Of a DNA stretch of 64,000 nucleotides, positions 9,675 through 18,445 are shown one piece after another. The position numbers and the translations under genes are program-made. This stretch comes from Gimesia aquarii (GTDB lineage: Bacteria > Planctomycetota > Planctomycetia > Planctomycetales > Planctomycetaceae): positions 248,001 to 312,000 of the forward strand of contig NZ_CP037422.1 of assembly GCF_007748175.1 (NCBI RefSeq), written 5' to 3'. The stretch's first letter is position 1. Every line of letters starts with the position of its first letter. The notes beneath the pieces are model-generated. The model made no database searches and was not told the origin of the DNA. It was given only the letters and a program-made list of their open reading frames with translations.

Positions 9675-9810
9675 ACTGGCGGGGTATCACTTTCGAATTC
9701 AGTAAAACAAACAATATCCGGTAGAAAAAGGGCAGAGGGATGATCATACTACTATATATGGACCCAAACGAAATTCTACAAGACAATTGATCATAGAGAA
9801 GGTTTTCACA

Positions 9811-14086: not shown

Positions 14087-15211
14087 TTATTTCGCTTTGA
14101 ATACAAAATCTTTTACAGGGACGAGACCTTGCCGATCTTGGATGAATGCCTGATTCTTAATGGAGTCCCACATACGCTCGCCGTATTGCAGGTCGAGTGA
14201 TTTGACTTCAAAAAGGTTTAGTTCAATCGGGAGGTTTAATTTGGATTCGATTAATGTAACGGTACGACTTCTAATCAATTCTTCCTCTTGGCCCTCTTTG
14301 TTTTGAAAGTGTTCGATACTTACTTTTTCTGGTAAATAGATCCCGTCTACTTTTTTGTATCTAAAGATGCGTTTGTGCCGTAGTTTTAGACCGGAGTATT
14401 GTTCATATTTTGTGGTATTAAAACCATACCTGGAATCGTATGTTACTTTATAAATGTTCGGTGTGGCTTTGGGGCTCATAGGCTTAAATTTCTTGGTCAC
14501 GATAAAAAATTTATCACCAGATGTGTTTGTTTTTTCTATGATCGATACCATCATCAAAGCTTTCTGCTTTTGTTCGTCTCCTTTCTTTCCACTGAGCGCT
14601 GTGGCATACATGTCACAATTATTTGCAAAGGAATCCGAGAAATCTGAGCCGCTTCCAAATAAACCTCTGGGATCAAAAAAACGGCCATTCGAGTGCAGAT
14701 CATACTTCAGCAAGCGATATAATATTCTACCACTGATATTTTGGTGAAATTCTTTACGTCGTCCGAAGTGATTTTCTGAGAGTGCAAAACTCTCTTCTCT
14801 TCTCACAATCCATTGTGAATTCAGCCAGCTATTTGCTTTAACATGCTCTTGTGGTATCAGCTGGAGATTATCTGGTTTTACGGATAACTCATAATTTACG
14901 CGCAGCTTGTCCTGTTTTTGGTCCAGCCAGAATGGTAGTTGGCCTTGAGTGATCTCCCAATATCCACTGCCTTCGTTTCGCTTCGGGATTTTAAAATGGA
15001 CTTTGTCGAAGAAACGGTAGGTTCCCTGCCAGGTTTGGATGGAATCCAAATTACTAGATAACTGTTTTGCGAGGAATGCAAAGGCTTTTTGGATTTCCTT
15101 TGGATTCAGTTTCCGTTCATTGTCATCTGTTGGTGGTGCTGCCCTCATTATCGCCGGAGAATTCAGCAAAAAAGTCAGGGACATCAGTGTGAGTGACAAA
15201 CGACCAAGCAT
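14087..15211 (-). CDS. Secreted hypothetical protein
   Basis: This 374-residue protein begins with a signal peptide (about 1-24, cleavage near IMRAAPP). The mature part is polar, with alternating strand-like segments and a recurrent DSRYGFNTTKYEQYSGLKLRHK-like region. A C-terminal segment (DGIYLPEKVSIEHF) resembles outer-membrane lipoprotein-sorting or DUF-type planctomycete proteins that read as beta-sandwiches. I cannot name a family. It faces the sulfatase pair convergently (24-bp gap) and is transcribed alone. The function is unknown; a periplasmic location follows from the signal peptide. Confidence 0.82.
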   Translation of the reverse strand: MLGRLSLTLMSLTFLLNSPAIMRAAPPTDDNERKLNPKEIQKAFAFLAKQLSSNLDSIQTWQGTYRFFDKVHFKIPKRNEGSGYWEITQGQLPFWLDQKQDKLRVNYELSVKPDNLQLIPQEHVKANSWLNSQWIVRREESFALSENHFGRRKEFHQNISGRILYRLLKYDLHSNGRFFDPRGLFGSGSDFSDSFANNCDMYATALSGKKGDEQKQKALMMVSIIEKTNTSGDKFFIVTKKFKPMSPKATPNIYKVTYDSRYGFNTTKYEQYSGLKLRHKRIFRYKKVDGIYLPEKVSIEHFQNKEGQEEELIRSRTVTLIESKLNLPIELNLFEVKSLDLQYGERMWDSIKNQAFIQDRQGLVPVKDFVFKAK

Positions 15212-15485: not shown

Positions 15486-17660
15486 CTAATCAATCCAATG
15501 CAGGACGTTGCGGATGATCGACCAGCGCGGGGGTGTTCTCTCTTCGTTTTTGCCAAGGATCCAGTAATTGTAGAGCGTTTGAAAGGCGCCTTCCTTCTTT
15601 TTGAGTTCGAGCCAGACTTCCATGAATTCTTCGAACTCCACATCGTGTGCTCCCAGGTAATACAAGGGAACGCGAATATCTTTCCGAAAAGGATTCACAA
15701 CAGAAAACTTCGGATACAAGAGTGTCCAGGCCGAACCGGTCTCGGCACTGGTGACCAGGATACTTGCATCTCCCGCTTCGCCTTCAAAAAATTCCTCTTC
15801 AGATTCAATTTGAACAAATGAGGCATTCGGAAAATATTCGTGTGCTTTTTCATCAAAAAAGCTATTGGACACAACGGCGATTTTCAAATCTTTAGAATTT
15901 CGAAATTCCTCGAAATCCAAAAAGACGGCTTTGCGATAGTCGGGTAAGACGATGGCGAGTGTAACGTCCATATAAGAATCGGCCACAGGGAATGCGGTGG
16001 CACGTTCGATGGTACCTTCCAGACCTGACATCGCCAGATCGAAGTGATCTTCATCAAGCTGTTTGATGAGGGTATTCGGAGTGAACGGAATGAATTCGAT
16101 GGCCACACCTAGATCGTCGGCCAGGCGATGTGCCATATCAATATCAAAACCGACCAGTTGATTTTGTTCATTGAAATAGGAAAATGGCAAACGTTTGCCA
16201 TCAAATCCGAGTCGAATTACCCCACGGCGTCTAATGCGGTCGATTCTGGTTTCCCCCGGCATGATGGCGACCGGATTTGGTGTTGATTTCTTGAGGATTG
16301 TATAAGGGACATCAGGAAACAATAATTGCCGATCCGCAATCATCGCCTTGGATTGATAAAGGTCTTTGAAAGTGTAATTCAAAACGGTATGAATTCCAGC
16401 AATGACAATGCCGGCAATGCACAACCAGAGTAGCGAGTAAGAAATAAATCTTTTCCATTGAATTTTGAGGGTTCCCGACAATGAGGCGGCAGCGAGGATA
16501 GCAAAGGAAAACAGATAAATCGAACGGAGTGCATCTCCCAGACGCGTGGTATAGATGCCGACTGCCAGATAGAGTTGAAAAATATCATGGGGAATATGCA
16601 TCAGGTCGAGTAGCCAGGGGATTGTAACGGCAGGTTTGGCAAAGGAACCGGCCATGCCTAAGGATAAAAATTTGGGGTATTGGTCTGGTAATAAACTCTC
16701 ACCATAAAACCAGGCCGAAAAGGGAATAAAAATCAATCCGATAATCCTTCCCAGATCGGGAAAGGGGAATACGAGGGGAACTAAAACATCCGGAGAGCCA
16801 CCGCTATTTTCTTTTTCCAGATGATAGCGGTCCAGAATCTCGCGAGCCGCTTCGACGATTAATGGCAGCACAGCGAAGGTGTTGCCTAACACGAATGCTG
16901 CGATGACCGCGGTTTGTGAAACCTTTAATGCGTCCCAGTATCTTACGGGAGTGCAGACTGAAATCAGCATCGGTAGAATTCCGACTGCGAGAAGCAGCGT
17001 CGCGGCTGAGAAGGTGATTAGATAAGCCTGGAGCAATCCGAATTTTTCAAACGGCAGTGTGCCGACGGCGTACGAGACGATCGCAAAGATTCCAAAAGGA
17101 GAAATATGAACCACAAAGCGGTTGAGTCTCATTAATGCCTGCACTGCAACCGTTAGTGGATCCAGCAAATGATCCCGATTCGAAAGACTGCTTAAAGCGA
17201 TACCTAGTCCGATGGAGAAGATGACGACGGCAGGAACCGCGTTGTTCGCAAGTGAGAAAAAGGGATTTGCGGGCACGAATAAATCATACAGGCTTTCGTT
17301 TTGTGTCCCCTGGATGATGCTGGTGCTAAAAAACGCTCCCTTTTGCCAGAAAGGAAACGCCAGGGACATCAGACAGACAGAAAACAGACCAATACACCAT
17401 AAAATGATCAGGAGAACAATGACCGTCAGAGCCATATTCCGTGTCTGTTTTAATGAGATACGGCCCAAATTCAGAATCAGTGAAAGTGTAATGTAGGGCA
17501 GGACGGTCATCTGCAAGAGACCAATGAAAATCTCCCCGATTGATTTCAGAGGGGCGCACAGATCACCAAAGAAAAGACCACACAGAATTCCCAGAAACAG
17601 ACTTGTTAGAATCCAAGTTGTTAACCCGGGTTTGAAATGCTTCTGTGTTACTTCGCCCAT
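15486..17660 (-). CDS. Dicarboxylate/amino acid:cation symporter-like protein fused to a family 3 solute-binding domain
   Basis: This 724-residue protein joins two modules usually found apart. Residues about 10-430 form a multi-pass membrane domain of the DAACS (GltP/GltPh) family, with LQMTVLPYITLSLILNLG and NNAVPAVVIFSIGLG. Residues about 472-705 form a bacterial family 3 solute-binding domain (RRRGVIRLGFDGKRLPFSY, GFDIDMAHRLADDLGV, DLAMSGLEGT). Two DAACS substrate motifs are altered: the Ser-rich HP1 loop reads LGNTFAVLP and the NMDGT motif is replaced by PDLGR. The tethered binding domain may therefore supply specificity. The fusion has no frameshift or internal stop. Substrate prediction: an acidic or polar amino acid or dicarboxylate, uncertain. 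Confidence 0.88.
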   Translation of the reverse strand: MGEVTQKHFKPGLTTWILTSLFLGILCGLFFGDLCAPLKSIGEIFIGLLQMTVLPYITLSLILNLGRISLKQTRNMALTVIVLLIILWCIGLFSVCLMSLAFPFWQKGAFFSTSIIQGTQNESLYDLFVPANPFFSLANNAVPAVVIFSIGLGIALSSLSNRDHLLDPLTVAVQALMRLNRFVVHISPFGIFAIVSYAVGTLPFEKFGLLQAYLITFSAATLLLAVGILPMLISVCTPVRYWDALKVSQTAVIAAFVLGNTFAVLPLIVEAAREILDRYHLEKENSGGSPDVLVPLVFPFPDLGRIIGLIFIPFSAWFYGESLLPDQYPKFLSLGMAGSFAKPAVTIPWLLDLMHIPHDIFQLYLAVGIYTTRLGDALRSIYLFSFAILAAASLSGTLKIQWKRFISYSLLWLCIAGIVIAGIHTVLNYTFKDLYQSKAMIADRQLLFPDVPYTILKKSTPNPVAIMPGETRIDRIRRRGVIRLGFDGKRLPFSYFNEQNQLVGFDIDMAHRLADDLGVAIEFIPFTPNTLIKQLDEDHFDLAMSGLEGTIERATAFPVADSYMDVTLAIVLPDYRKAVFLDFEEFRNSKDLKIAVVSNSFFDEKAHEYFPNASFVQIESEEEFFEGEAGDASILVTSAETGSAWTLLYPKFSVVNPFRKDIRVPLYYLGAHDVEFEEFMEVWLELKKKEGAFQTLYNYWILGKNEERTPPRWSIIRNVLHWID

Positions 17661-17872: not shown

Positions 17873-18445
17873 ATGGCATTTTCTCTCACCTATCAAAGTC
17901 ACTCATTCACATTCGAAACCGCTCCGGAGTTGTTTTCTCCCAAAAATCTTGACAGGGGAACGGAGGCAATGTTATCGACGGTGACATTCGAACCCGGTCA
18001 GCGTGTGTTAGACCTGGGTTGCGGATATGGTGTCGTGGGAATTTTGGCAGCGAAAATAGTAGGACCAGAAAATGTCGTAATGACTGACATTGAGCGGGCA
18101 GCGGTACAGTTTGCACGGCACAATGCAGAGCAGAATCAGGTTGACGCTGTGGAAATCATGCAGAGTGATGGTCTGAATGATCACCACGAATCCGACTTCG
18201 ACTGGATTTTGTCGAATCCCCCTTATCATACCGATTTTTCAATCGCTAAAAATTTCATTATGAAAGGCTTTAACCGATTAAAAATCGGTGGTCGGATGGT
18301 GATGGTCACGCGTCGTCGGCTCTGGTATCAGAAAAAACTGACGAGTATTTTTGGAGGCGTCGATGTGAAAGAGATTGACGGCTATTTTGTGTTTCATGCC
18401 GAGAAACGACGTGCGACTTATGCTGCCAAGAAACGTAGACGGTGA
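17873..18445 (+). CDS. RsmC/RlmG-like class I methyltransferase
   Basis: This 190-residue protein has SAM-binding motif I in RVLDLGCGYGVVGILAA, an acidic MTDIERAA at the end of the second strand, and the catalytic SNPPYHTDFS motif. That combination marks the N2-guanine methyltransferases of the RsmC/RlmG group that act on rRNA. It corresponds to the C-terminal catalytic half; the N-terminal pseudo-catalytic half of E. coli RsmC is absent, which is usual in this shorter bacterial type (B. subtilis YbxB-like). The C-terminus is basic (KKRRR), fitting RNA binding. The gene stands alone, divergent from the symporter fusion. Confidence 0.88.
   Translation: MAFSLTYQSHSFTFETAPELFSPKNLDRGTEAMLSTVTFEPGQRVLDLGCGYGVVGILAAKIVGPENVVMTDIERAAVQFARHNAEQNQVDAVEIMQSDGLNDHHESDFDWILSNPPYHTDFSIAKNFIMKGFNRLKIGGRMVMVTRRRLWYQKKLTSIFGGVDVKEIDGYFVFHAEKRRATYAAKKRRR

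Follow-up and report, generated by a model that had tools for sequence, protein, structure and literature searches.

An SLC1-type membrane domain with a replaced transport core fused to a family 3 solute-binding domain in Gimesia aquarii: a candidate binding-protein-dependent secondary transporter

Results

Gene architecture and surroundings

The analysed stretch of Gimesia aquarii DNA (64,000 nucleotides, hereafter the window) contains on its minus strand a single open reading frame for a protein of 724 amino acids, with an ATG start and with the stop codon included in the coordinates listed in Table 1. Pfam assigned two domains to this frame. SDF (PF00375) matched residues 13-369 with an E-value of 1.2e-38 and 133.6 bits against a cut-off of 27.9, and the match spanned positions 1-363 of the 387 profile positions, as is characteristic of SLC1/DAACS proteins. 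SBP_bac_3 (PF00497) matched residues 482-701 with an E-value of 4.6e-20. The preliminary description of this locus, in which a DAACS/GltP-type membrane domain is followed in one chain by a family 3 solute-binding domain, was therefore confirmed. A binding protein and a secondary carrier are linked here as in the class formed by TRAP, TTT, and TAXI-GltS, in this case within one polypeptide. Profile-profile comparison by hhalign matched the membrane half to GltP, DctA, SstT, and TcyP of Escherichia coli and to a paralogue from the host genome with a probability of 99.8%. AlphaFold2 models, each built on seven alignment rows, reached a mean pLDDT of 38.1 and a pTM of 0.31 for the full-length protein and of 49.8 and 0.39, respectively, for the binding half, values too low for any structural interpretation. 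Two promoter-like sites were observed versus 3.8 expected, and six terminator-like sites versus 2.8 expected, all of the latter within the fusion gene.

Table 1. Features of the fusion gene, its product, and the flanking genes (positions in the window; residues are those of the fusion protein)
Feature	Position	Strand	Remarks
Small-domain methyltransferase gene	17873-18445	+	divergent from fusion gene
Fusion gene	15486..17660	-	724 aa
SLC1/DAACS (SDF) membrane domain	16476..17624	-	residues 13-395; eight canonical helices plus HP1 and HP2
HP1 tip GNTFAVLP	16863..16886	-	residues 259-266; replaces (A)SSNGTLP
TM7 motif PFPDLGR	16746..16766	-	residues 299-305; replaces NMDGT
HP2	16605..16658	-	residues 335-352; F340 and P348 in 23/23
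TM8 motif RLGDALR	16524..16544	-	residues 373-379
Ninth hydrophobic helix (TM9)	16383..16451	-	residues 404-426; basic loop before helix
Variable linker	16263..16376	-	residues 429-466; mean column identity 0.40, no invariant column
Family 3 solute-binding domain	15552..16247	-	residues 472-703; PF00497 and profile match to AncCDT-1 (5t0w)
SAETG	15735..15749	-	residues 638-642; E640 and G642 in 23/23
Conserved C-terminal tail PRWSIIRNVLHWID	15489..15533	-	within residues 710-724
Gene for 374-aa protein without Pfam match	14087-15211	-	downstream of fusion gene, same strand

Gene neighbourhoods were compared for 16 loci, five of them from the genus. Within the genus, the methyltransferase gene was present at all five loci and the downstream gene without a Pfam match at four; neither was found at any of the 11 other loci. 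No partner gene common to the distant members emerged from the 16 loci, for which gene calls were crude: the greedy open reading frame picker chose an antisense frame over the fusion gene itself in L064, L067, L072, and L073. A metabolic operon partner was not seen at any of these loci, either within or outside the genus. Elsewhere in the window, the plus strand between positions 9787 and 14062 encodes a TIM-barrel protein resembling xylose isomerase and, after it, two sulfatases. At one of the 16 loci (genome G364, L070:7041-16474), genes identified by Pfam as cheB and cheA adjoin the fusion gene in opposite orientation.

Distribution, ancestry, and selection

All 15 good-quality genomes of the genus, and 16 of the 17 in total, carried an intact fusion gene; the genome without it is 76% complete. 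The encoded protein is 82-83% identical to its Gimesia relatives and 94% identical to a homologue from a metagenome-assembled genome designated Planctomycetaceae bacterium. At the family level, full-length matches to the fusion occurred in 20 of 170 genomes (the count of 49 genomes with any match includes canonical SDF proteins); the occurrence of the gene beyond the genus is thus patchy. When either half was used as the sole profile against a sample of 392 genomes of the phylum, the same 22 genomes were recovered, with 24 places each (E ≤ 1e-30). Both halves lay within one open frame of 607-819 amino acids at 23 of these places; at the last one (G140), they were on two contigs, each cut at the contig end. 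Separate and unlinked close homologues, which would have spoken against the preliminary description, were not found in the 392 genomes by searches that, following a loose initial filter, scored a small number of candidates in each genome, so that a distant separate half could escape. These searches covered the phylum of the window, and other phyla were sampled through plasmids. Two of 28 matching plasmid records, from the gammaproteobacteria Halioglobus pacificus and Pseudoalteromonas xiamenensis, carried a full-length fusion. With the membrane half from Halioglobus as query, three plasmid records were retrieved, namely Halioglobus, Pseudoalteromonas, and a partial match in Priestia. Among viral contigs, 62 pattern matches contained no relative.

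In total, 107 loci with a long match yielded 34 distinct proteins, which were reduced to 23 at 90% identity. This set of 23 omits the fragments L023 and L025 (match shorter than 550 query residues) and includes the contig-cut L008 (607 amino acids). A phylogeny of fusion-bearing homologues had been proposed as a check on the preliminary description. In a quick tree of 22 fused proteins (L008 was omitted as cut) and 10 canonical SDF proteins, among which SstT and TcyP formed long branches, a branch with 100% SH-aLRT support separated all fused proteins from the canonical ones, and a single change between canonical and fused proteins was required. The two halves diverged together (Spearman 0.68; the permutation maximum was 0.42, and none of 2000 permutations was as high), as expected if they had travelled together. 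For genus pairs with estimable dS, dN/dS ranged from 0.035 to 0.066 in the membrane half and from 0.041 to 0.081 in the binding half; saturation made several dS values unusable for a ratio. Both halves are thus under purifying selection. The fusion is no chance join. One genome (G522) holds two copies of the family (L087 and L097). The second copy groups with L095 in a divergent branch in which Thr replaces D376 of TM8, and L095 itself (genome G477) is extended at its C-terminus, with additional sequence following the conserved tail.

Replacement of the HP1 and TM7 motifs

In the portion of PMC12668577 that deals with GltPh, residues N310-M311-D312 are described as a nexus for Na+ and substrate, and T314, D394, R397, and N401 as the residues that hold the substrate. 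The same source includes N310, [M/S]311, [D/E]312, and [D/E]405 among the Na+ residues of SLC1 proteins and links H+ coupling to L311 and N405; the site is also treated in part of PMC6800002. When the fused proteins were aligned with canonical SDF proteins, the window protein showed LGNTFAVLP in place of the Ser-rich HP1 loop and PDLGR in place of NMDGT, irrespective of whether one of three MAFFT modes or profile-profile alignment was used. Both substitutions had been noted in the preliminary description, and the canonical HP1 and TM7 motifs occur nowhere else in the protein. The serine-rich HP1 tip of SLC1/DAACS proteins was replaced in the fused proteins: position 260 was Lys in nine, Asn in eight, and Ser in six of the 23, position 261 was Thr, Leu, Ser, Val, or Ile, and position 262 was Phe, Ile, or Leu. 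In TM7, N310 and D312 of the NMDGT motif were likewise absent from all 23. The consensus there is PFPxxG[KR], with P301 and G304 invariant and K/R305 in 21 of 23. Expressed in GltPh numbering, N310 has become Pro and D312 a hydrophobic residue (Leu, Ile, Met, Val, or Ala) in every protein, G313 is retained throughout, and T314 is replaced by Arg or Lys in 21 of 23. The register of the HP2 tip varied between MAFFT modes.

The loss of the HP1 and TM7 motifs is family-wide. The signature of Na+-coupled SLC1 proteins (N310, [M/S]311, [D/E]312, [D/E]405) was absent in 23/23, as scored without TM3 residues 92-93, where the alignment was unreliable. The H+-coupled signature (L311, N405) was absent in 23/23 as well, the corresponding positions 302 and 387 being occupied by D/H/N/S and A/T/S/C/V, respectively. 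Besides the fusion protein, the single 7.2-Mb contig of the host genome encodes one SDF protein, a canonical one that keeps both SSNGTLP and NMDGT. The motif swap in the fusion protein is therefore not a lineage-wide drift.

A possible substrate pair in TM8

In TM8, R373 was conserved in 21, D376 in 19, and R/K379 in 10 of the 23 proteins, that from the window included. All three MAFFT modes aligned RLGDALR of the window protein with the canonical R-(V/I)-L-D-M-x-R after a four-residue insertion. In these registers, D376 corresponds to GltPh D394 and R379 to R397, whereas N401 is replaced by L383 and D405 by A387. The hhalign global alignment lacked the four-residue insertion and with it the D376/R379 correspondence; the local alignment ended at residue 371. 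N401 and D405 were lost in MAFFT and hhalign alignments alike. In GltPh, the counterpart of this DxxR/K pair recognises the substrate by its amino group and its acidic side chain, and a pair able to recognise an acid is probably retained in TM8 of the clade to which the window protein belongs. The earlier statement that the usual substrate motifs are altered holds for HP1 and TM7; in TM8 the loss is probably not total, given that DxxR fits D394/R397 in the MAFFT alignments. K260 in HP1 (9/23) and R/K379 in TM8 (10/23) never occurred in the same protein. This pattern resembles a contact between HP1 and TM8, but a charge swap is not claimed, because the tree shows one change at position 379 and two at position 260 and offers no usable independent pairs.

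The ninth helix, the binding domain, and the C-terminal tail

In canonical SLC1 proteins, TM8 is the last membrane helix and leads to a cytoplasmic C-terminus. Each of the 23 fused proteins has an additional hydrophobic segment at this point, with a best 19-residue hydropathy mean of 1.74-2.52, and no hydrophobic stretch follows TM8 in any of five canonical proteins. The loop preceding this ninth helix is basic (on average 3.2 Lys/Arg and 0.2 Asp/Glu), and the stretch after it is acidic. According to the positive-inside rule, this charge distribution would place the binding domain outside.

The best PDB profile match of the binding half was AncCDT-1 (5t0w) with an E-value of 1.9e-52, in agreement with its assignment to family 3. 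The closest solved relatives are AncCDT-1, a reconstructed ancestor, and cyclohexadienyl dehydratases (5hpq): AncCDT-1 scored 181 bits, later ancestors 162 and 145 bits, and the dehydratases about 126 bits. This ranking points to a general family 3 binder. An enzymatic role of the binding half was also considered and is unlikely, as the match falls from AncCDT-1 to the modern dehydratases. The positions that would contact the carboxylate and the amino group of an amino acid were assigned from the ligand contacts in LAO/HisJ. The carboxylate position, Arg553, is Arg in 17 and Lys in two of 23 proteins. The position of the amino-group Asp is Ser, Thr, or Ala in all 23, and the invariant E640 lies two residues further on. 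With Arg in only 17 of 23 proteins and the amino-group Asp absent, it would be premature to take an ordinary amino acid as the ligand; our best guess is an amino acid or a similar small anion. Beyond the binding fold, the tail RWSxxRxVxxW belongs to the best conserved parts of the protein, with R712, W713, and W722 invariant in 23/23. That the tail serves in docking is a guess.

Discussion

We propose, with moderate confidence, that the fusion protein is a single-polypeptide, binding-protein-dependent elevator transporter devoid of the known Na+ and H+ signatures. Such a carrier would best explain a single lineage that arose by one change in the tree, halves never found apart in the sample and both under constraint, a new conserved core, and a ninth helix predicted to place the binding domain outside. 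The finding of no partner gene outside the genus agrees with the self-contained, binding-protein-dependent transporter already considered in the preliminary description.

The N-terminal half would be a carrier of SLC1 fold, probably trimeric as in the known SLC1 structures. The ninth helix would bring the chain back out, so that the tethered family 3 domain would reside in the periplasm above the carrier. There, it may capture its solute, most likely an amino acid or a similar small anion. The loaded binding domain would close, dock, and pass the solute on to the carrier, whose transport domain would then move it inward. Because PxxG[KR] replaces NMDGT and no acidic Na+ ligands are left, the fixed positive charge and the docked binding domain may together take the place of Na+ binding in GltPh. 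Transport would then require the binding domain and be coupled to a different ion or to none. A more specific version, which we put forward only tentatively, is that the fused proteins are a separate lineage of binding-protein-dependent carriers of SLC1 fold in which the fixed Arg/Lys replaces Na+, and closure of the loaded binder, instead of ion binding, triggers the elevator step or opens the anion pathway.

The preliminary description had also raised a sensor-like transporter that no longer binds glutamate itself. The protein would then be a nutrient sensor (transceptor) in which the carrier fold has ceased to transport appreciable amounts of solute and reports the state of the binding domain via its cytoplasmic face to a separate signalling partner. 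We regard this as possible and rather doubtful. Loss of the equivalents of N310, D312, N401, and D405 would suit a sensor, as would the lack of a metabolic operon partner in or beyond the genus and the position of one of the 16 loci beside cheA/cheB-type genes. However, Pfam detected no cytoplasmic signalling domain in the fusion protein, and the crude gene calls yielded no conserved partner gene outside the genus. In the helices of the transport domain, moreover, new invariant residues have appeared in place of relaxed positions. The family-wide conservation of the new core motif and the TM8 DxxR/K pair in the clade of the window protein weaken the sensor-like reading further.

If D376 and R379, which the window clade retains, do match GltPh D394 and R397 as in the three MAFFT registers, the protein could be a conventional SLC1 symporter that has a substrate and a cation of its own, and the binding domain would be dispensable, merely concentrating the substrate or regulating the carrier. 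This is unlikely in view of the absence of Na+ and H+ signatures from all 23 proteins, with Pro invariably at the N310 position, and given that no membrane half lacking its binding half came up among the 392 genomes at E ≤ 1e-30. SLC1 carriers also possess a known anion pathway, and the K+ channel of GluR0 is gated by a domain of this type. A ligand-gated anion conductance, with the SLC1 anion pathway opened by the binding domain, would be in keeping with the additional fixed positive charges that the core has acquired (K/R305, R373, and K260 or R/K379), but we consider it very improbable. A misassembly, frame error, or decaying pseudogene is refuted by the conservation of the fusion, seen in 34 distinct proteins of which 33 have 720-743 amino acids and in dN/dS values of at most 0.14 in all segments and pairs with estimable dS.

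Comparison with known systems

The architecture is visible to automatic annotation and hence, as far as searched, undescribed but not unseen. The protein from P. xiamenensis is annotated as 'cation:dicarboxylase symporter family transporter'. No description of an SDF-SBP_bac_3 fusion was found in the open-licence PMC literature by title and start of abstract. The terms GltPh, SLC1, and DAACS do not occur in the main text of PMC12344293, and the available part of a review on binding-protein systems (PMC8276074) names no SLC1 system and does not use the term DAACS. Judged from the protein's domains and motifs, the fusion looks like an apparently undescribed way of feeding a carrier from its own built-in binding protein.

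The membrane half is homologous to GltPh, GltTk, and GltP of the SLC1 family (DAACS, Pfam SDF). Unlike these, the fusion protein has its NMD motif, HP1 serines, D405, and N401 replaced and possesses TM9 and a binding domain. A binding domain tethered to its own carrier is likewise found in ABC importers of the GlnPQ/OpuA type, and that of GlnPQ also belongs to family 3, with 6h30 among the matches of the fusion protein; these importers are driven by ATP, whereas no ABC parts are present here. TRAP systems (SiaPQM type) similarly combine a binding protein with an elevator-type secondary carrier. Their membrane and binding parts belong to families other than SLC1 and family 3.

A published precedent for the fusion of a binding protein with an elevator-type carrier is TAXI-GltS (BP0402/BP0403 and the Lachnospiraceae fusions; PMC12344293). 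It has likewise been proposed to be a binding-protein-dependent secondary carrier of elevator type, fusions exist, and functional coupling is unproven there, too. An ESS (GltS) carrier is combined with a TAXI-type binder in that system, whereas an SLC1 carrier is combined with a family 3 binder here. The binding domain is N-terminal in the TAXI-GltS fusions, of which the authors counted 14 among approximately 10,000 GltS proteins, and C-terminal, after an added helix, in the protein described here. According to its authors, TRAP and TTT were the only known secondary transporters with soluble binding proteins before TAXI-GltS, and they suggest that the elevator mechanism may permit such use, an idea testable by finding further classes (PMC12344293). 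SLC1 is a classic elevator family with many solved structures, and a natural fusion of an SLC1 carrier with a binder would put this idea directly to the test. The replaced NMD motif would also shed light on possible routes to the loss of ion coupling, for which the ion-independent ancestral transporter treated in part of PMC12668577 provides a case for comparison.
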